Below, in pieces: positions 30,101 through 39,421 of a stretch of 64,000 nt of DNA. This DNA comes from Sphingomonas sp. (lineage in GTDB: Bacteria; Pseudomonadota; Alphaproteobacteria; Sphingomonadales; Sphingomonadaceae). Position 1 is the first letter of the stretch. Every line of letters starts with the position of its first letter. The notes under the pieces were generated by a model. That model was not told where the DNA came from. It saw only the letters and a program-made list of their open reading frames with translations, and ran no database searches. The DNA is taken from positions 62,001 through 126,000 of the forward strand of contig NZ_JACDDV010000001.1 in assembly GCF_013816785.1 (NCBI RefSeq), in the 5' to 3' direction. Made by a program: the position numbers and the translations under genes.

Positions 30101-30886
30101 GTGCGAACATTGGGACCATTCGACGTCGTGACGGAGCTGCCGATCCACCGCTGGAACGCGTCCGACGGCGTGGAGCTTGTCTGGCGCGAGCTGGGCGAGG
30201 GCCGACCGGTGGTGCTGGTCCACGGCCTCTTCTCCGACGCGGTTACCAACTGGATCAAGTTCGGCGGCGCCGCCGCGGTCGCGGCGCGCGGCTTTCGCGT
30301 CATCATGCCGGACCTTCGCGCGCACGGCCTCAGCGGTAAGCCCCATGACCCGGCCGCCTACCCCGACGGCATCCTCGGCCGCGACCTCAAGGAGCTGGCT
30401 GCCCATCTCGGGCTCGACGATTATGATCTCGGCGGCTTCTCGCTTGGCGCTCGGACCACGGTGCAGGGAGTGGGCGAGGGGCTTCGTCCGCGCCGCGCCG
30501 TGCTGGCCGGGATGGGGCTCGAAGGCCTCAGCGGCTGGCTCCGCCGCAAGGACTTCTTTCTCGATGCGATCGCCAATTTCGACACGACAAGCCGCGGCGA
30601 CAAACACTGGCTGGCAATCCAGTTCATGAGGACCATGAAAGTTGACCGCGCCGCAGCAGCGCTCTTGCTACCGACGTTCACCGACGCGCGGCCCGAATGG
30701 CTCGCCGCCTTCACCATGCCGACGCTGGTGCTGTGCGGGATCGAGGATCGCGACAATGGCTCAGCGCCGAAGTTGGCCGACGCGCTTCCCGACGCCACCT
30801 ACGTTTCCGTGCCCGGCACGCACATGAGCAGCGTCACCAAGCCGGAATTCGCCGAACGGCTTGCCGAATGGCTCGCCGCGCCTTGA
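30101..30886 (+). CDS. alpha/beta hydrolase
   Basis: A 261-residue alpha/beta-hydrolase. The oxyanion motif is VVLVHGLFSDAVTNW, the nucleophile elbow GGFSLGART (Ser), an acid is likely in LCGIEDRDNGS, and the histidine in VPGTHMSSV. PDLRAHGLSGKPHDP is typical of esterases and hydrolases of the MhpC/PcaD kind. No signal peptide is seen. Start is a GTG at 30101; a GTG at 30128 would remove nine residues. Substrate unknown. Confidence 0.85.
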   Translation: MRTLGPFDVVTELPIHRWNASDGVELVWRELGEGRPVVLVHGLFSDAVTNWIKFGGAAAVAARGFRVIMPDLRAHGLSGKPHDPAAYPDGILGRDLKELAAHLGLDDYDLGGFSLGARTTVQGVGEGLRPRRAVLAGMGLEGLSGWLRRKDFFLDAIANFDTTSRGDKHWLAIQFMRTMKVDRAAAALLLPTFTDARPEWLAAFTMPTLVLCGIEDRDNGSAPKLADALPDATYVSVPGTHMSSVTKPEFAERLAEWLAAP

Positions 30887-30961
30887 CCTTAGCCGCGCGA
30901 CGTTTCACTGATTTCGTCACGCGAAAACAATGAATTGACCCAGGACGAGGAGTTTGACGCC

Positions 30962-32833
30962 TTGAAATACCTTGCCGCTTCCGTGTCGCTAGCCGCGCTT
31001 GCGCTGGCGGGCTGTGCCGCTACCCCGCCGGCCCAGATGGCCGCCGAAATTCCGGCCGAAGCTCCCGCAGCAGCCGCGGCCGCAGCGGCCTACCCGCTGA
31101 CTCCCGACGGCGCTCGCGCCTTCATCGCCGAGGTCGAGAAGGATCTGTATGACTTTGGCACCATTTCGGGCCGCGCCCAGTGGGTCAACGCGACCTACCT
31201 GACAGACGATACCGACGCGCTCGCCGCCTATTTCGGCACGATCGGCACCGAAAAGGGTGTCAAATATGCGTCCGATGCGGCCCGTTATGCCCGGGTCGAG
31301 GGTCTCGACTTTGACACGGCTCGCAAATTGAACATCCTGCGCGGTGCTTTGGTGCTGGCGGCGCCGAGCACGCCGGGCGCGGCGGCCGAACTCAACACCA
31401 TCGCCACCCGACTCCAGTCGAACTACGGCAAGGGCCGTGCGTCGCTGCACGGCAAGGTGCTGACCGGCGACGACGTCGAGGCAATGATGGGCACCAACCG
31501 CAACCCAGCCGAGCTGGCCGAAATGTGGAAGACCTGGCATGAGAATGTTGGCCGCCCGATGCGCCCCGATTATACCCGCATGGTCGAGATCGCCAACGCC
31601 GGCGCCAAGGATCTCGGCTATGGCGATAGCGGCTCGATGTGGCGCAGCCAGTATGACATGACGCCCCAGCAATTTTCGGCGATGTACGACCGACTGTGGT
31701 CTGAAGTGAAGCCGCTCTACGACGACCTCCACTGCTACACCCGGACCAAGCTCAACCAGAAATACGGCAATGCCGTTCAGCCAGCGTCAGGTCCGATCCG
31801 CGCCGATCTACTCGGTAATATGTGGGCGCAGGAATGGGGCAACATCTACGACATCGTCGCGCCCAAGGGCGCCGGCGATGTCGGCTACGACACCACTGAT
31901 CTGCTGGTGAAGGCGAAATATACGCCCGAGAAGATGGTCCGCACCGGCGAGGGTTTTTACAAGTCGCTTGGTCTCGCGCCTTTACCGGCAAGCTTCTGGG
32001 AACGGAGCCAGATCACTCGCCCACGCGACCGAGAGGTGATCTGTCACGCTTCGGCCTGGGACGTCGACCAGAAGGATGATCTGCGCATCAAGATGTGCAC
32101 CAAGGTCAATGGCGACGACTTCGTCACCATTCACCACGAGCTCGGCCACAACTATTACCAGCGCGCCTACAACCAGCAGCCCTACCTCTACCTGAACGGC
32201 GCCAACGACGGCTTTCACGAGGCGATCGGCGACTTCATCGCGCTGTCGATCACGCCCGAATATCTGACGCAGATCGGCCTGCTCGACAAATCGAAGGTGC
32301 CTTCGGCTGATAAGGACACTGGTTTGCTGTTACGTCAGGCGATGGACAAGGTCGCCTTCCTGCCGTTCGGCCTGCTGGTCGACAAATGGCGCTGGGGCGT
32401 TTTCGACGGATCGATCACCCCGGCCAACTACAACCAGGCCTGGGTTGACCTCAAACGTCAGTATCAGGGAATTACGCCGCCGGTGGCGCGCAGCGAAAGC
32501 GATTTCGATCCGGGGGCCAAGTTCCACATCCCGGGAAACACACCCTATGCTCGCTACTTCCTCGCGCGCCTGCTGCAGTTTCAGTTCTACAAGGCGGCGT
32601 GCGACATCTCCGGATGGAAGGGCCCGCTTCACCGCTGCAGCTTCTACGGCAACAAGCAGGTCGGCGCACGCTTGAACGCGATGTTGGCGATGGGTGCGTC
32701 CAAGCCGTGGCCCGACGCGCTCGAGGCGTTTACTGGCAACCGAGACATTTCGGGTAAGCCAATGATCGAATATTTCGCGCCGCTCCACGCTTGGCTCAAG
32801 CAGCAGAACGCAGGCAAGCAGTGCGGATGGTGA
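30962..32833 (+). CDS. M2 family (ACE-like) peptidyl-dipeptidase lipoprotein
   Basis: A 623-residue zinc metallopeptidase of family M2, the angiotensin-converting-enzyme family, releasing dipeptides from C-termini. The zinc motif HELGH is in TIHHELGHNYYQ and the third ligand in DGFHEAIGDF. The N-terminus KYLAASVSLAALALAGC is a lipoprotein signal (A-G-C), followed by an Ala/Pro linker. The start is likely TTG at 30962 behind GAGGAG, since an ATG is not available; an upstream TTG at 30935 would break the signal peptide. Expected in the periplasm, outer-membrane anchored. Bacterial members are common in sphingomonads and xanthomonads. Confidence 0.93.
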   Translation: MKYLAASVSLAALALAGCAATPPAQMAAEIPAEAPAAAAAAAAYPLTPDGARAFIAEVEKDLYDFGTISGRAQWVNATYLTDDTDALAAYFGTIGTEKGVKYASDAARYARVEGLDFDTARKLNILRGALVLAAPSTPGAAAELNTIATRLQSNYGKGRASLHGKVLTGDDVEAMMGTNRNPAELAEMWKTWHENVGRPMRPDYTRMVEIANAGAKDLGYGDSGSMWRSQYDMTPQQFSAMYDRLWSEVKPLYDDLHCYTRTKLNQKYGNAVQPASGPIRADLLGNMWAQEWGNIYDIVAPKGAGDVGYDTTDLLVKAKYTPEKMVRTGEGFYKSLGLAPLPASFWERSQITRPRDREVICHASAWDVDQKDDLRIKMCTKVNGDDFVTIHHELGHNYYQRAYNQQPYLYLNGANDGFHEAIGDFIALSITPEYLTQIGLLDKSKVPSADKDTGLLLRQAMDKVAFLPFGLLVDKWRWGVFDGSITPANYNQAWVDLKRQYQGITPPVARSESDFDPGAKFHIPGNTPYARYFLARLLQFQFYKAACDISGWKGPLHRCSFYGNKQVGARLNAMLAMGASKPWPDALEAFTGNRDISGKPMIEYFAPLHAWLKQQNAGKQCGW

Positions 32834-32836
32834 AAA

Positions 32837-32864
32837 AGCCCCTCTCCCGCGCGGGAGAGGGGCT
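32837..32864. terminator. bidirectional palindromic terminator
   Basis: AGCCCCTCTCCCGC is followed at once by its exact complement GCGGGAGAGGGGCT. AAAAA precedes it at 32833-32837, giving a U tract for minus-strand transcripts of the convergent small membrane protein gene. It lies between two convergent genes and probably serves both. Confidence 0.75.
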
Positions 32865-32872
32865 CGTACAAT

Positions 32873-33304
32873 CTAATAAGAGACCGCGCCGGCCTTGAGC
32901 TGATCTTCGATCAGGGGATCGGCGGGTTTGGTCGTCTTGACGCCGGTTTCCTTGAGGGTCAGAGCCTCCTCGGCGATCTCGGTCTGCGACTTTTCATCAA
33001 TGCCGTCGATCTTACGCGAGGCGCGCTCGGCGGTAGATTTCACTTTCGACTTCGCGTCGGCCAGTCCATCCTTGACCCGCTCGGCCAGGTTGGCGGCGGC
33101 GTCCTTGAACGAGCCTTTGTTGCGCGAGAAAAAATAGGCGCCGGCGGCCGCCGCGGCGACGGCGGTGACCGCGCCGGTCGCGATTGCCGCGCTGGCGTAG
33201 GGGCGATCCCTGACCGTCCGTCCGCTACGCGCGAGCAGCGTCTGGTCTTTCGGCGCCGAACGGCTGCGACGGTTGGTTGTCGAAGGTTTCTTGGTAGTGG
33301 CCAT
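32873..33304 (-). CDS. basic membrane-anchored protein of unknown function
   Basis: A 143-residue protein. The N-terminus is basic (TKKPSTTNRRSRSAPKDQ), then comes one membrane helix (YASAAIATGAVTAVAAAAAGAYFF) and a C-terminal charged helical region with an apolipoprotein-like or LEA-like pattern (FKDAAANLAERVKDGLADAK, KSKVKSTAERASRKIDG). I do not recognise a named family; similar proteins occur in sphingomonads. A GAGGAG ribosome site precedes the ATG at 33304. It lies downstream of the peroxiredoxin gene on the same strand. Confidence 0.7.
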   Translation of the reverse strand: MATTKKPSTTNRRSRSAPKDQTLLARSGRTVRDRPYASAAIATGAVTAVAAAAAGAYFFSRNKGSFKDAAANLAERVKDGLADAKSKVKSTAERASRKIDGIDEKSQTEIAEEALTLKETGVKTTKPADPLIEDQLKAGAVSY

Positions 33305-33383
33305 GGCGATACTCCTCACAGGATGGTGCGAGATATCAAACGCCCGGCGAGCCAAATCGACCCGCCGGACGGCGTGCTTTTTG

Positions 33384-33863
33384 TTACAGCTGGCCGAGTA
33401 GGGCTTCGGCGCTCGATGCCTGATATTCGCCGGGCGCCTCGACATTCAGCTGCTCGACGACTCCGTCGTTGACGATCATCGAATAGCGCTGGCTGCGCTG
33501 ACCCATGCCGAACTTGCTGCCGTCCATTTCCAGCCCGACCGCCTTGGCGAAATCGCCGTTGCCGTCAGCCAGCATGGTGATGTCCTCGCTGCCCTGTTCC
33601 TTGTTCCATGCGCCCATCACGAAGGCATCGTTGACGCTGGTGCCGACAACCTCGTCGATGCCCTTGCCCTTTAGTTCCTTGGCCTTTTCGACATAGCTCG
33701 GCAGGTGCCGTGCCGAGCAAGTGGGAGTGTAAGCGCCCGGGACCGCGAAAAGCGCAACGCGCTTGCCCGCGAAATAATCGCCGCTTTTGACCGGCACCGG
33801 CCCCTCCGGTGTGGCTAGCGACATATGAACGTCCGGGATGCGGTCGCCGACCTGGATAGGCAT
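33384..33863 (-). CDS. peroxiredoxin, Prx5 type
   Basis: A 159-residue thiol peroxidase reducing peroxides. PGAYTPTCSARHLPSYVEKA holds the peroxidatic cysteine in the PxxxTxxC pattern; VGTSVNDAFVMGAWNK and GQRSQRYSMIVNDGVVEQLN are Prx5 hallmarks. Only one cysteine is visible, so reduction probably uses glutathione or glutaredoxin. AGGAG lies before the ATG at 33863; the frame upstream is not conserved. Divergent from yqgE. Confidence 0.93.
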   Translation of the reverse strand: MPIQVGDRIPDVHMSLATPEGPVPVKSGDYFAGKRVALFAVPGAYTPTCSARHLPSYVEKAKELKGKGIDEVVGTSVNDAFVMGAWNKEQGSEDITMLADGNGDFAKAVGLEMDGSKFGMGQRSQRYSMIVNDGVVEQLNVEAPGEYQASSAEALLGQL

Positions 33864-33961
33864 GAGGAATCTCCTGTTTGATGGACAGGCCGGGACATAG
33901 GTGCAGCGCAGCGCAGTCTCAAGGCTTGTGCCATTTCTCGTCGCCAAGCATTCATCGAGCG

Positions 33962-34522
33962 ATGGAACAGCCTCGCTTTCAGTCGGGCAAGTTGCTGCTT
34001 GCTATGCCGGGCATCGGCGATCCGCGCTTTGAGCGCGCGGTGATCGCGGTCTGCGTCCATGACGAACATGGTGCGGTTGGCATCGGCATCGGCCACCTGC
34101 GCGCAGGCGTCGGGTTGCGCGGCCTGCTTCACGAGCTCGATATCGATCCGGGCGACGCGCCCGACGTACCCGTGCTGCATGGCGGGCCAGTCGAGCCGGG
34201 CAGGGGCTTTGTCCTTCACAGCGACGATTGGGGCGGGCAGGATACGATCGCGGTAACCGGGCTTGGCGCGTTGACCGGCACGCTCGACGTGCTGAACGCC
34301 ATTGCCGAAGGCCGCGGACCGAGCCGCTATCTTGTCGCATTGGGTTATGCCGGATGGGGCGAGGGCCAACTCGACGACGAAATGACCAGACCTGGCTGGC
34401 TCACGGCATCGGGCTCTCCAACGATCCTGTTTGAAACACCGGTCGTGCAGCGCTGGGAAGCATCGTTCCGCGCCGAAGGTATCGACCCGCGCCTGCTTGA
34501 CAGCGCTGCCGGCGCCGCTTGA
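33962..34522 (+). CDS. YqgE/AlgH family protein
   Basis: A 186-residue protein of the UPF0301 (YqgE/AlgH) family. Characteristic segments: FQSGKLLLAMPGIGDPRFERA, PVLHGGPVEPGRGFVLHS, ALGYAGWGEGQLDDEM and WLTASGSPTILFETP. Structure of relatives is known but function is not. ATG 33962 matches the family start; 15 codons or more of open frame upstream are dropped. Confidence 0.9.
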   Translation: MEQPRFQSGKLLLAMPGIGDPRFERAVIAVCVHDEHGAVGIGIGHLRAGVGLRGLLHELDIDPGDAPDVPVLHGGPVEPGRGFVLHSDDWGGQDTIAVTGLGALTGTLDVLNAIAEGRGPSRYLVALGYAGWGEGQLDDEMTRPGWLTASGSPTILFETPVVQRWEASFRAEGIDPRLLDSAAGAA

Positions 34523-34535
34523 TCTAACGGGCGGT

Positions 34536-35327
34536 TTATTCGTAACCGAGCATGCCGCGCAGCCCGGGCGCGGCAAAATCTAGCAATCGCCTTTGCATCT
34601 CGGGCAGCTCCGCCGGTAGGTCCAGCTTGACCCCCGTGAGATTTTCCCTCGCGGTGCCGCTTTGATTGCGATCGGAGCCGATCCGAACCCGCGCCTGCCA
34701 GTCTTGAGGTCGTTCGATCCCGCAGGCTTCGAATAATTTGGTGAAGAATAACTCGGCCGCCTTGCCGTCCAAATCACCCAACGCGGCGACAAGGTCTTCA
34801 TAGCGGATCAGCCGCACTCCCGTTCCAAGCCAGGCAAGGGCGTTATAGGTGAACGTCGCGGCGAGCGGCGGCTCCTTCCCGTGGATGCCCAGGATCATCA
34901 TGTTCAGAAGTGCTTCGGCGCCGACCGACCCATCCTGGGGAAATTCCAGCGGGCCTTTGAATTCATCGCTCATGAAGAAGCGCGCGCGGGCGATCACCCA
35001 GTCGTAAGGGTCGCGGACCAGCAGGACCTGGCGGACTCCCGCTAGCGCCCTGACGGTAGTGTCGGTGAAGAGCAGGTGCCCCCAACTCAGCAGTTTTCGG
35101 TTCTGGTCGAAGGCGGCAAGGTGATGCTGCAAAATTTGATGTTGGATAAATTCCGCTTTGTATTGGCTTTCGACCGGCACAAACATTCGGAGGATGTTGC
35201 GCAACAAATGGCTGCCGCTCTTCGGGACACTGTTCAGGAACAAGGGCTGGTCAAGAGGGCGCTGATCGAATTTGCGATTTTCGTCGTCAAGCGTATCCGG
35301 CTTCACCGTGACCCGTGTAAACGACAT
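34536..35327 (-). CDS. sulfotransferase family protein
   Basis: A 263-residue protein with a sulfotransferase fold. The phosphate-binding loop FLNSVPKSGSHLLRNILR corresponds to the PAPS 5'-phosphosulfate site and VLLVRDPYDWVIARARFF to the 3'-phosphate site; RLIRYEDLVAALGD is the usual following motif. It would transfer sulfate from PAPS to a hydroxyl or amine; the acceptor is unknown. ATG 35327 has GGAG upstream and is preferred over GTG 35351. No sulfate activation genes are nearby. The 168 bases before it hold no clear feature. Confidence 0.78.
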   Translation of the reverse strand: MSFTRVTVKPDTLDDENRKFDQRPLDQPLFLNSVPKSGSHLLRNILRMFVPVESQYKAEFIQHQILQHHLAAFDQNRKLLSWGHLLFTDTTVRALAGVRQVLLVRDPYDWVIARARFFMSDEFKGPLEFPQDGSVGAEALLNMMILGIHGKEPPLAATFTYNALAWLGTGVRLIRYEDLVAALGDLDGKAAELFFTKLFEACGIERPQDWQARVRIGSDRNQSGTARENLTGVKLDLPAELPEMQRRLLDFAAPGLRGMLGYE

Positions 35328-35495
35328 CGAAATACTCCTGGAGGCGTGCACTGTCGCCGCGGGAAGGGTGGGTTTGCACGGATGTTACGAGCAGCGGCGG
35401 CGGGGCTCAAGAGAGGCGGGGCACCCCAATTGCTTCGAACACGCTTCCCCGCCGAAGGCGCCCGCTGTTCGACAGCGCCACCGGTGCGGCTTTAA

Positions 35496-36359
35496 TCAGT
35501 GCACTGTGTATTCAAGGTGCCGCAACTTGTCCGGATTGCGCATCACATAAATTGCCTCAATTCGATCGTCGACAAGCAGTAGGGCCGTCGTCTGGAGCAT
35601 TCCGTCCGCTTCGCGGGTAACGAAACCCGGGAGGCCGTTGATGAAGGCAAAACGGACGCTGGTCGACGGATGAAGTCGAAACAGCTTTGCCAGACCGGCG
35701 TGCAGCTTTGTCACCGCCGTGATTCCCCGGATCACTTGCGTCGCCGCTGATCGCTTTCCGCCGCCATCGGCATAAAGGCCGACATCGTGGGCCAGCATCG
35801 CTTCCAGACGCTGGATGTCGCCCTTTCGAGAGGCAGCGAAGAAAGCCGATGCGATTTCCAGTCCGCGTTTCCGATCGACATGATAACGTGGCCGGTCGGC
35901 GCGAACATTTTGGCGGGCACGGCTGGCGAGCTGGCGGCACGCAGCCGCATCCCGGCCAAGGGAAGCTGCAACATCGTCGAAGCTTTCCCCGAAAACATCA
36001 TGAAGCAGGAATGCCGCGCGCTCTAGCGGAGAGAGCCGCTCCAGCGCGAGCATCAGCGGCAAGGTGACATCCTCGACCTCTTCGTCTTCAACCGTCGGCT
36101 CGGGCAGCCATGGACCGACGTAAGTCTCTCGCCGCGAGCGCGCCGACTTCAGCTGGTCGAGGCAAAGCCTAATGACCACTCGGCGAAGGAACGCCTGGGG
36201 CGCCTCGACTTCGCTTCGATCCGTACTCGACCAACGCAGCCAGGCATCTTGCACCACATCCTCCGCATCGGCGATCGAGCCGAGCATCCGATAGGCAACC
36301 TGGATCAAATCCGGTCTCATTGTTTCGAACTGAGGCGGCGGTTGCGCTTCTCCTACCAT
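35496..36359 (-). CDS. ECF41-type sigma factor with fused SnoaL-like domain (SigJ family)
   Basis: A 287-residue ECF sigma factor. Sigma2 is at about 10-75 (MLGSIADAEDVVQDAWLRW) and sigma4 at about 105-155 (LSPLERAAFLLHDVFGESF). A C-terminal SnoaL-like domain (about 165-287) replaces a separate anti-sigma factor. The three ECF41 signature motifs are all present: WLPEP in the linker, DGGGK in the extension, and NPDKL near the end. In this group the C-terminal domain regulates the sigma activity. The gene is the second of an operon with an AhpD-like protein, the usual ECF41 partner, overlapping it by seven bases. Confidence 0.93.
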   Translation of the reverse strand: MVGEAQPPPQFETMRPDLIQVAYRMLGSIADAEDVVQDAWLRWSSTDRSEVEAPQAFLRRVVIRLCLDQLKSARSRRETYVGPWLPEPTVEDEEVEDVTLPLMLALERLSPLERAAFLLHDVFGESFDDVAASLGRDAAACRQLASRARQNVRADRPRYHVDRKRGLEIASAFFAASRKGDIQRLEAMLAHDVGLYADGGGKRSAATQVIRGITAVTKLHAGLAKLFRLHPSTSVRFAFINGLPGFVTREADGMLQTTALLLVDDRIEAIYVMRNPDKLRHLEYTVH

Positions 36360-36802
36360 CCGACGCTCGCGTCAAAAATTTCGAAGCCCACGGCAAGGCG
36401 GTTCCATCCGTTGATGACGACGATCATCATGGTCAGCTTGACTTGCTCCTCCTTGCTGAACTGGTCATCGAGCGCTGCGTATATAGCGTTAGGGGCTCGG
36501 CGATCGGCAACCAGCGTCAGATGGTCGGTCCATGCGAGCGCCGCGCGCTCCCGCTCGCTGAAGACCGGCGCTTCATGCCATGCCGTCAGCAGGTGAAGCC
36601 GTTGTTCCGTTTCCCCCTTCTTCCTCGCGTCGGCGGTGTGCATGTTGAGGCAGTTGGCGCACCCATTGATCTGCGACGCCCGAATTTTGACTAACTCGAG
36701 CAACCCTTTTTCGAGGCCGCTGTCACCGACTTGGGTCGAGAATTCCACGAACCGCTTCATCATCTCGGGGTTAGAGGCAAATAGGTTGTTGCGGGGCTCC
36801 AT
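36353..36802 (-). CDS. AhpD-like carboxymuconolactone decarboxylase family protein
   Basis: A 149-residue AhpD-fold protein with the redox motif CANCLNMH (CxxCxxxH) at about 48-55, in the segment LVKIRASQINGCANCLNMHT. Such proteins have alkylhydroperoxidase activity in some cases. Members of this family are standard targets of ECF41 sigma factors. It is preceded by AAAGGA and by an ECF41-type promoter. The downstream gene encodes that sigma factor, so autoregulation is likely. Confidence 0.9.
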   Translation of the reverse strand: MEPRNNLFASNPEMMKRFVEFSTQVGDSGLEKGLLELVKIRASQINGCANCLNMHTADARKKGETEQRLHLLTAWHEAPVFSERERAALAWTDHLTLVADRRAPNAIYAALDDQFSKEEQVKLTMMIVVINGWNRLAVGFEIFDASVGW

Positions 36803-36835
36803 CAGGTCGTCCTTTCAAAAGGGTTTCGAAAACTT

Positions 36836-36862
36836 GACGAAACAGGCCGGGCAATTGTGACA
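36836..36862 (-). promoter_or_regulatory. ECF41-type promoter
   Basis: On the minus strand TGTCACA is followed by 16 bases and CGTC. This fits the reported ECF41 target promoter (-35 TGTCACA, -10 CGTC). It lies about 34 bases upstream of the AhpD-like start codon, giving a short leader that includes the AAAGGA ribosome site. Confidence 0.85.
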
Positions 36863-36999
36863 TGCGGGCCCCAATTTACGCCTCCGACCTCCGCGCAGGA
36901 CGCCGGCCGATTGCTTTTGGAGACTGTCAGGGCTAGGGGCGGCGCGACTGATCGGGCGGCCGTGCGCTGCCCTTCATTTTCATTCTGGAGAGCTTTGCC

Positions 37000-38412
37000 G
37001 TGGCCACTACTGCCGACACCATGACCCGCGATTATCTCGTCAAGGATATCAGCCTCGCTGCCTTCGGCCGCAAGGAAATCGACATTGCCGAGACCGAGAT
37101 GCCTGGCTTGATGGCGCTGCGCAGCGAATTCGGCGCGTCGCAGCCATTGAAGGGCGCGCGGATTACCGGCTCGTTACACATGACTATCCAGACCGCGGTG
37201 CTGATCGAGACGCTGACCGCGCTTGGCGCCAACGTCCGCTGGGCGTCGTGCAACATCTTCTCGACCCAGGACCATGCCGCCGCCGCCATCGCCAAGTCGG
37301 GCGTTCCGGTGTTCGCGGTCAAGGGAGAGACGCTCGAAGAATATTGGGACTATGCGGCGCGCATCTTCGACTGGGGGCAGGACGAAACCTGCAACCTAAT
37401 CCTCGACGACGGCGGGGACGCGACCATGTTCGCGCTTTGGGGCGCCCGGGTCGAGGCCGGCGAAACCCTATTCACCCCGACCAATGAGGAAGAGGAAATC
37501 TTCGCCGCGACGCTGACGCGTTTCCTCAAGGAGCGTCCGGGCTATCTGACCAGGACGGTCGCCGCCATCAAAGGCGTTTCGGAAGAGACCACCACCGGCG
37601 TCCACCGCCTCTATGAACTCGCCAAGCAGGGCAAGCTCCCGTTCCCGGCGATCAACGTCAACGACAGCGTCACCAAGTCGAAATTCGACAACCTTTACGG
37701 CTGCAAGGAAAGCCTGGTCGATGCCATCCGCCGCGGCACTGACGTGATGCTGGCCGGCAAGGTCGCCTGCGTCGCCGGCTTCGGCGATGTTGGCAAAGGT
37801 AGTTCGGCCAGCTTACGCAATGGCGGAGCGCGTGTGCTGGTAACCGAAGTCGACCCGATTTGCGCGCTGCAAGCGGCGATGGAGGGCTATGAGGTGGTGA
37901 CGATGGAAGAGGCGGTCAAGCGCGCCGACATTTTCGTCACCGCGACCGGCAACGCCGACGTCATCACGCTCGATCACATGCGCGAGATGAAGGACATGGC
38001 GATCGTCTGCAACATCGGACACTTCGACAGCGAGATCCAAATCGGCGCGCTCAGCAACATGAAGTGGGACGAGATCAAGCCGCAGGTCGACGAGGTTACT
38101 TTCCCCGACGGCAAGCGCCTGATCATCTTGTCGAAGGGCCGTCTGGTCAACCTCGGCAATGCCACCGGCCACCCCAGCTTCGTGATGTCGGCCAGCTTCA
38201 CCAACCAGACGCTCGCCCAGATCGAGCTATGGACCGGCGGCGACAAGTATAAGAACGACGTCTATGTCCTGCCCAAGCACCTCGACGAGAAGGTCGCCGC
38301 ACTCCACCTCGACAAATTGGGCGTTAAGCTGACCACGCTGACCGACAAGCAGGCCGGCTATATCGGCGTTCCGAAGCAAGGCCCGTTCAAGCCCGATCAT
38401 TATCGCTATTAA
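37000..38412 (+). CDS. ahcY: adenosylhomocysteinase
   Basis: A 470-residue S-adenosylhomocysteine hydrolase splitting SAH to adenosine and homocysteine, removing the inhibitor of methyltransferases. NAD-binding [20 protein letters not shown]; substrate motifs [28 protein letters not shown] and [12 protein letters not shown]; the C-terminal FKPDHYRY is typical. The bacterial insertion of about 40 residues is present. The start is GTG at 37000 behind GGAGAG. The 137 bases upstream hold no riboswitch that I could recognise. Convergent overlap of four bases with the oxygenase gene. Confidence 0.97.
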
Positions 38413-39377
38413 TCTCTAGCGGGACCAAATGGACGTTCGCGGATCCACCGGGAGGCGAGAAACTTTTCGCCTCTGGCGACGGGAAGTCCCGCGTGCTCGG
38501 AATTGGGATCGGGTTGCCCGTGCCGGTCGACGTTGCGGAACAGCAGGGCGTCGCCTTTGCGTCCCTTCACGCGCAAACCCGTCGCCAGGAATTCAGTCTC
38601 CCCGTCTTCGTAATCGTCGTTCAAATAGACAAGGAAGGTGAGGATCCGCTGATTGTCCGTATCGGTCAGCGCATCGAAATGCGCCCGATACTCCTGGCCG
38701 GGGCGATAGCGCAGGACTTGCATCGGCTCGCCCTGGTTGACTTTCGTGCCGCTGGCGACGGCGAGGCGCCGGCAGAGCGCATGAATTGCTGGGCTTTCAG
38801 CGACCCAAGGATAGGCCGTCGCATCGGAAGTCCGGACCGGGTTCGGGACAAGGGCGCCGCTGATCGGGTCAACCACCGTTGAAGGCTCGAACGCCGGCAT
38901 CGAGGATTCGATGAGGAAATTGCATTCGGCGTCGGTGAACAGCGATTCGAAGGCCTGCACCTCCGGCGACTTGGATACAGTTAAAGCCGGGCATGGATGG
39001 ATCGGGTCGCCGCTTTCCATGAGGCGCATCCGGGCGATGAGGTCCAGCTCGCGCCGCGCCGCCGTATCGGTCGCCGCCGCTTGTTCGAGCAATTTTACGG
39101 CGCCCGTCCAGTCGGGCGGACCACCCGTGCCATTGGCAACGAAGGCGCGATACGCGGCCGCCCCGGCCACGCTTCCTGCCAAGCCTGCTCGTCGGAACAG
39201 ATCGCGGGAGAGTTTCAGGTCGCGATTCACGACGTCTCCTGAGAGGGACATGCTGGCGAGGTAGGCGAGCGCATCGGGATCGTTTGCCCTTGCGGCCACG
39301 CCGAGCAGGTCCAGACCATCCTGATACTGGCCGACGCGGAACAGTGATTCCGCTCGCTCTATGGCGTTGCTTGTCAT
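38409..39377 (-). CDS. Sel1/TPR-repeat 2OG-Fe(II) oxygenase (prolyl 4-hydroxylase type)
   Basis: A 322-residue protein. The N-terminal part (about 1-115) is helical with Sel1-like repeats ([35 protein letters not shown]). The C-terminal P4H-type dioxygenase (about 140-315) has iron ligands His233 and Asp235 in [10 protein letters not shown], His295 in NSEHAGLP, and 2OG-binding Lys305 in [27 protein letters not shown] is the family core. It would hydroxylate a protein or small substrate using 2-oxoglutarate and O2. It lies after a TonB-dependent receptor and a hairpin terminator, mirroring the pair at 43071-47884. Start at ATG 39377; no clear ribosome site. Confidence 0.87.
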
Positions 39378-39421
39378 GTCACTTTTGTTGGCAGCACTAA
39401 GACCACGCCGCCACAAAAAAA

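Follow-up and report, generated by a model that had tools for sequence, protein, structure and literature searches.

The 64,000-nucleotide stretch of Sphingomonas sp. DNA analysed here (contig NZ_JACDDV010000001.1, positions 62,001 to 126,000; called the window below) carries on its minus strand a compact regulatory module, in which a gene of the carboxymuconolactone decarboxylase (CMD)/AhpD-like family is followed by an ECF sigma factor gene. It is very probably an ECF41 module in the predominant arrangement of that group, the COE gene first and the ECF gene second, COE meaning carboxymuconolactone decarboxylase, oxidoreductase or epimerase (PMC3426412). The assignment is based on the features of the group and on the NCBIfam model NF007214, and every group feature that could be tested was present. 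This kind of module is already published (Wecke et al. 2012), and the window adds another copy of it.

The hallmarks of ECF41 are a lack of an obvious anti-sigma gene, a neighbouring COE gene, a WLPEP motif, an extension with conserved motifs, and the promoter TGTCACA-n16-CGTC (PMC3426412). Because the features in the window are those described by Wecke et al. (2012), its copy is counted as a member of the published group. COE-then-ECF loci accounted for 107 of 373 loci and formed the largest class with a COE gene, and the promoter stood ahead of the COE gene in 97 of the 107 (PMC3426412, Table 4). Read 5' to 3' on the minus strand, the window has the TGTCACA-N16-CGTC promoter, AAAGGA, the CMD gene and the sigma gene in this order (Table 1). 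The promoter TGTCACAATTGCCCGGCCTGTTTCGTC (36862-36836) lies 33 nt ahead of the CMD gene start, and the two genes overlap by 7 nt (ATGGTAG), with the sigma ATG over the CMD stop. An earlier reading of this DNA from its letters alone (the sequence-only reading) had described the promoter and the gene pair; we found each element where it had been placed, the promoter correct to the base. It had also stated that there is no anti-sigma gene, and Pfam likewise gave no match to an anti-sigma family in eight neighbouring open reading frames (ORFs), namely seven within 30101-39416 and the peroxiredoxin ORF at 33384-33947, a search that a divergent anti-sigma factor could escape.

The closest known systems of the group, RSP_0606-ecf41Rsp of Rhodobacter sphaeroides and ydfG/ecf41Bli of Bacillus licheniformis, resemble the window in having a CMD gene, a WLPEP sigma with a motif-bearing extension, a TGTCACA -35 element with TGTT or CGTC at -10, and no anti-sigma gene; in RSP_0606-ecf41Rsp the genes overlap as well (PMC3426412). 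They differ in organism and are divergent in sequence. Promoter activation by ECF41 was demonstrated in B. subtilis and R. sphaeroides, and in R. sphaeroides and B. licheniformis transcription starts at a G followed by a leader of 22/23 bp (PMC3426412). The SMb20029-rpoE9 locus of Sinorhizobium meliloti also has TGTCACA-N16-CGTC, there 9 nt before the mapped start (PMC3616915). By this spacing, a start at G36827 and a 25-nt leader are predicted for the window.

Related loci keep the promoter in the same position, which supports the ECF41 reading. We compared 86 loci (the best 80 of 547 confirmed relatives and six more, the window excluded). A CMD match was present in 83 of them, and exact TGTCACA-N15-17-CGTC was found within 150 bp upstream of the CMD gene in 80 of the 83, while a control with both elements reversed in place was exact in none. 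Two of the remaining three had one mismatch, and L081 had three mismatches and an exact site further upstream. The 86 loci together (842,565 bases) contained 82 exact sites, at most one per locus, versus one for the reversed pattern. CMD matches were missing in L040, L073 and L082; in L040 an exact site stands ahead of a gene of the antibiotic-biosynthesis-monooxygenase family, and no exact site was found in L073 and L082. The sigma gene had a candidate start in 80 loci, lying between -12 and +10 nt from the CMD stop in 76 of the 83, where the nearest in-frame start was taken and the gaps are biased towards small values.

The sigma factor matched NF007214 (SigJ subfamily) with 392.3 bits (cut-off 271), and the sequence match to Mycobacterium tuberculosis SigJ (5xe7) had an E value of 7.4e-48. 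The three motifs named in the sequence-only reading, WLPEP, DGGGK and NPDKL, are all present (W84-P88, D198-K202 and N275-L279). Residues W84, L85, P86 and P88 were identical in at least 97% of the 86 relatives, and the full WLPEP was found in 46 of 87 sequences. DGGG[KR] and NP[DE]K[LM] were each conserved in 85 of the 87 sigmas, the window's included. PMC7730460 gives NPDKL as an ECF41 motif, and the label of group motif for DGGGK is that of the earlier reading.

The C-terminal extension is predicted to be a SnoaL/NTF2-like domain, as in SigJ. The AlphaFold2 model, made from alignment A1 (40 of the 87 sigma sequences), had a mean pLDDT of 86.6 and a pTM of 0.80, with the five models ranging from 86.6 to 68.7. 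Its top Foldseek match was SigJ 5xe7 (E 1.9e-20, query TM 0.75), followed by SigG1 (7qh5), and the VIA structure comparison gave Z 25.0 for SigG1 and 24.2 for SigJ. Residues ~158-282 alone resembled ketosteroid-isomerase and SnoaL-like NTF2 folds with Z near 12. Two results weigh against this picture of the sigma factor: Pfam gave no SnoaL match in the window sigma at E up to 1, and TIGR02957 (SigX4) stayed below its curated cut-off (298.6 versus 323.25 bits). Within A1, 21 of the 40 sequences had a SnoaL_2 match, the window's not being among them. So the SnoaL-like domain proposed earlier stands as a predicted fold, and not as a SnoaL_2 match.

Two sigma factors with solved structures are useful for comparison. 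SigJ (5xe7) consists of sigma 2, sigma 4 and a fused SnoaL_2 domain; it matches the window sigma over almost the full length and is 39% identical to it over 260 aligned residues. SigG1 of Streptomyces tsukubaensis (ECF56, 7qh5) has a SnoaL_2 C-terminal domain and a similar overall fold at 24% identity, but it lacks NPDKL and its antagonist RsfG is encoded alongside (PMC7730460), and no such partner was seen in the window.

The partner protein, a putative enzyme, can be placed in the CMD/AhpD-like family by its domain and its CxxCxxxH motif. It matched PF02627 (CMD) with 83.8 bits (cut-off 23) and the AhpD core-domain model TIGR00778 with 63.2 bits (cut-off 27.8), and it did not reach the cut-off of TIGR00777 for AhpD proper (26.2 versus 191.95 bits). 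Related solved structures are 2gmy (Atu0492) and 2ijc (PA0269). CxxCxxxH was present in all 84 CMD sequences, the window's among them. The AhpD-like partner of the sequence-only reading is thus borne out by PF02627, TIGR00778 and CANCLNMH. There are CMD genes in other bacteria with known responses: in a dibenzofuran shift, Swit_311 of Sphingomonas wittichii increased by as much as 2.8-fold (PMC3425912), and BCAL3214 of Burkholderia cenocepacia rose 35-fold with NaOCl and not significantly with H2O2 (PMC2830190). The available passages of these two papers hold nothing that ties either gene to an ECF41 sigma.

Strain-wide, the module seems to stand alone. The window sigma is the only ECF41-like sigma in the 2.3-Mb genome, the sole other match being 28% identical (E 2.7e-8). 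The exact pattern with a spacer of 15-17 was matched once in the window, where shuffles expect 0.06, and the exact pattern was matched once in the whole assembly (2,278,285 bases, 95 contigs). The genome scan that the sequence-only reading had proposed therefore gave no second credible target, and one-mismatch sites were near the control: with N16 and at most one mismatch there were 20 sites in the genome, the window's included, versus 16 for the reversed control. None of the 19 other sites had a Shine-Dalgarno-led ORF of at least 80 amino acids at 20-60 nt; one of them (L152) had such an ORF at 78 nt. At the level of sequence, this fits a single-operon switch. Overexpression in R. sphaeroides (PMC3426412) and in S. 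meliloti gave one target transcript each, and the S. meliloti sigma RpoE9, which is of another genus and likened to ours by motif and arrangement, had a single target (PMC6180224, PMC3616915). Across the family, the pattern with spacer 15-17 was matched in 241 of 298 genomes, and the control pattern also had many matches.

The sigma might instead serve a wider regulon through degenerate sites, with autoregulation as a side branch, and the 20 near-sites could be its basis. RpoE10 of Azospirillum brasilense reportedly controls motility and lateral flagella, as the title of the cited paper has it, and such a wider role means that ECF41 sigmas need not have one target only. It is a review passage that names RpoE10 as an ECF41 sigma, and this member with a broader role counts against the single-operon switch. 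But the reversed control had 16 such sites, the near-sites lacked suitably placed ORFs, and the overexpressed homologues each gave one transcript, and we consider a wider regulon highly unlikely.

Table 1. Features of the ECF41 locus and of its surroundings in the window
Feature	Position	Strand	Basis
-35 element TGTCACA, ECF41-type	36856-36862	-	sequence; promoter exact in 80 of the 83 related loci with a CMD match
-10 element CGTC, spacer 16	36836-36839	-	sequence; conservation in related loci
Predicted transcription start G, ninth base past CGTC	36827	-	S. meliloti spacing
Ribosome-binding site AAAGGA, 7 nt ahead of ATG	36810-36815	-	read from sequence
CMD/AhpD-like protein, 149 amino acids, COE partner	36353-36802	-	PF02627, TIGR00778
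CxxCxxxH redox motif CANCLNMH, residues 48-55	36638-36661	-	sequence
ECF41-type sigma factor, 287 amino acids	35496-36359	-	NF007214 SigJ, 5xe7
Sigma region 2, residues 11-75	36135-36329	-	PF04542, 50.9 bits, cut-off 24
WLPEP linker motif (regions 2-4), residues 84-88	36096-36110	-	sequence
Sigma region 4, residues 102-150	35910-36056	-	PF08281, 46.7 bits, cut-off 25.7
SnoaL/NTF2-like C-terminal regulatory domain, residues ~158-282	35514-35888	-	predicted fold
DGGGK motif, residues 198-202	35754-35768	-	sequence
NPDKL motif, residues 275-279	35523-35537	-	sequence
Sulfotransferase-like ORF, PKSGSH stretch	34536-35351	-	Sulfotransfer_3 18.8 bits, cut-off 27 (weak)
Probable inserted segment, sulfotransferase-like ORF and ECF41 module	34536-36910		inferred from algH-ahcY neighbours in congeners

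The anatomy, the conservation and the predicted fold come directly from the present analysis. Promoter recognition, autoregulation and the role of the extension, carried over from homologues, would give the following mechanism. The sigma factor, by its regions 2 and 4, would direct RNA polymerase to the TGTCACA-N16-CGTC promoter of its own operon, with no other target site visible in this genome, and each round of activity would raise the amounts of both sigma and enzyme. The fused SnoaL-like domain would take the place of an anti-sigma factor, with the WLPEP linker and the NPDKL tail as its points of contact to the sigma core; a WLPEP-NPDKL link is described in homologues (PMC7730460, PMC8999054). 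The extension would lower the resting activity and would partly be needed for the productive shape. Partial truncation of the extension made the sigma hyperactive and removal of the whole extension abolished activity (PMC3426412): variants 204 and 206 were hyperactive and 192 was reduced, all three cut inside the extension, and 167 and 169, cut at its start, were dead. In the window sigma only 8 residues follow NPDKL, and these are all that a cut past NPDKL would remove.

Because extension truncation by itself alters sigma activity and co-expression of YdfG did not significantly change the activity of Ecf41Bli (PMC3426412), it seems extremely improbable that the CMD protein regulates the sigma in an anti-sigma-like manner beyond being its target, even though the adjacency and overlap of the CMD and sigma genes are near-constant. 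The signal would alter the contact between extension and core; it is most likely a small molecule that binds in the NTF2-fold cavity. The thiol enzyme would be the output, probably removing the signal or something made with it. We infer both the binding in the cavity and the removal by the CxxC enzyme.

With H2O2, cumene hydroperoxide, t-butyl hydroperoxide and paraquat there was no strain difference in R. sphaeroides and B. licheniformis, a phenotype array gave no verifiable phenotype, and the COE protein was without effect on the sigma (PMC3426412). Since there was neither a peroxide or paraquat phenotype nor a COE effect, a simple peroxide role is disfavoured. No inducer of ECF41/SigJ-type sigmas was named in the titles or abstract openings that a literature search of incomplete coverage returned, and what these sigmas sense was left open by the 2012 study and by the passages of later papers. 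We can also imagine a portable sensor-enzyme cassette that moves between genera and whose cavity binds the substrate of the CxxC enzyme, closing a feedback loop. This appears rather unlikely; if it were true, partners of the CxxC, flavodoxin-fold or monooxygenase kind would point to a reactive organic electrophile or a quinone-like compound as signal. The window copy is usable for the question of the signal and not special for it, adding one clean copy of a published group, and the sole ECF41-like system with the sole exact site makes this genome a low-background place to ask what ECF41 senses.

Divergent loci tell something about the output. Among 299 Pseudomonadota genomes, 36 (own genome included) had a match, at 50 places, of which 44 were read; the six excluded were the window and partial matches at G581:C55, G575:C37 (twice), G629:C32 and G626:C6, and some places overlap genomes of the best-80 list, for example L205 and L004. 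A CMD-profile match was found anywhere in the stretch at 33 of the 44, and an exact promoter anywhere on either strand at 27, leaving 17 with none. There were 11 places without a CMD-profile match, and nine of them (L214-L218, L220, L230-L232) had a CGPC or CGSC gene directly upstream, the partner in L210 and L221 being another. Four of the nine CGPC/CGSC proteins were run in Pfam, giving two CMD matches below the cut-off and two without CMD match, so that Pfam lends weak support to a possible CMD-likeness. These places hint at a thiol enzyme as a frequent output of divergent ECF41 loci. Several of the CGPC/CGSC loci have an exact promoter some hundred bases further upstream, where another gene may come first.

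In L057 the ECF41 promoter is followed by the CMD gene, a gene of flavodoxin-like fold (PF02525, 4138-4965) and then the sigma gene; the operon there includes an extra redox enzyme. Between the CMD and sigma genes of L068 there is a gap of about the same length.

The module was likely acquired as a unit together with its own promoter. It sits between algH, which ends at 34522, and the strip upstream of ahcY, which resembles that of some congeners from ~36911 on. Of 41 genus genomes, 40 gave an ahcY gene, and for 30 of these the locus could be taken, 29 besides the own one. Among these 29, algH was directly beside ahcY in 16, no algH was present within the stretch in 10, and no CMD or sigma match was found at the ahcY locus in any. 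L146 has algH, a sulfotransferase-like gene and ahcY in that order, and in L136 and L148 algH and ahcY are ~1.15 kb apart with other sequence between them, so genes may have entered this interval on more than one occasion.

The relationships of the two genes point in the same direction. The sigma is ~72% identical to its nearest relatives among the matches listed, which are from Sphingomonas, and 54-55% identical to the sigmas of five congener genomes (one partial match 49%), these values shifting by a few points with the alignment. Six of 71 genomes in the genus sample had any homologue, own genome included. In the sigma tree (a quick method with SH-aLRT support only, 86 rows, L010 omitted), the window grouped with 13 rows from Sphingomonas, Novosphingobium, Croceibacterium, Altererythrobacter and unassigned bins, none from the genus sample (support 98), and the four congener sigmas included formed their own group (support 97). 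The ten closest relatives of the window CMD protein came from nine of these 13 loci plus L010, that is, from the loci of the sigma kin, and therefore both genes share a history. We favour acquisition as a cassette because the congener interval is empty, because of the sigma tree and because of the matching CMD kin.

Two observations speak against acquisition: the GC content of the module (59.3%, versus 63.4% for the window) is low but not extreme, as 12.8% of same-length stretches do not exceed that value, and the two ends of the segment were found to share no repeat, direct or inverted, of at least 9 bases. Vertical descent with many losses would be the other, less likely explanation. The module could also be a silent acquisition, its sequence intact but its function absent in this genome; no other member of its lineage occurs in the genus sample, and the congeners have nothing comparable at that place. 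However, both frames are intact, the motifs are kept and the promoter is exact, and at positions with at least 90% agreement among the relatives the window CMD protein deviates at none and the sigma at four, so a silent acquisition looks very improbable. What these results suggest as new is modest, namely the interval between algH and ahcY and the closer kin outside the congeners.

An inverted repeat, ATATAAAG...CTTTATAT, precedes ahcY in 21 of the 30 loci (L121-L149 and the window's own), and it resembles the operator of a methionine-cycle regulator, possibly SahR-like. It is missing in the window (36863-37000), which is one of the nine loci without it. For the sulfotransferase-like ORF, an NCBIfam match to Cas13b (19 bits, cut-off 150) was dismissed as most likely spurious. 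Further away on the plus strand, the ORF at 30935-32833 clearly encodes a peptidase M2 of the angiotensin-converting-enzyme family (723.8 bits).
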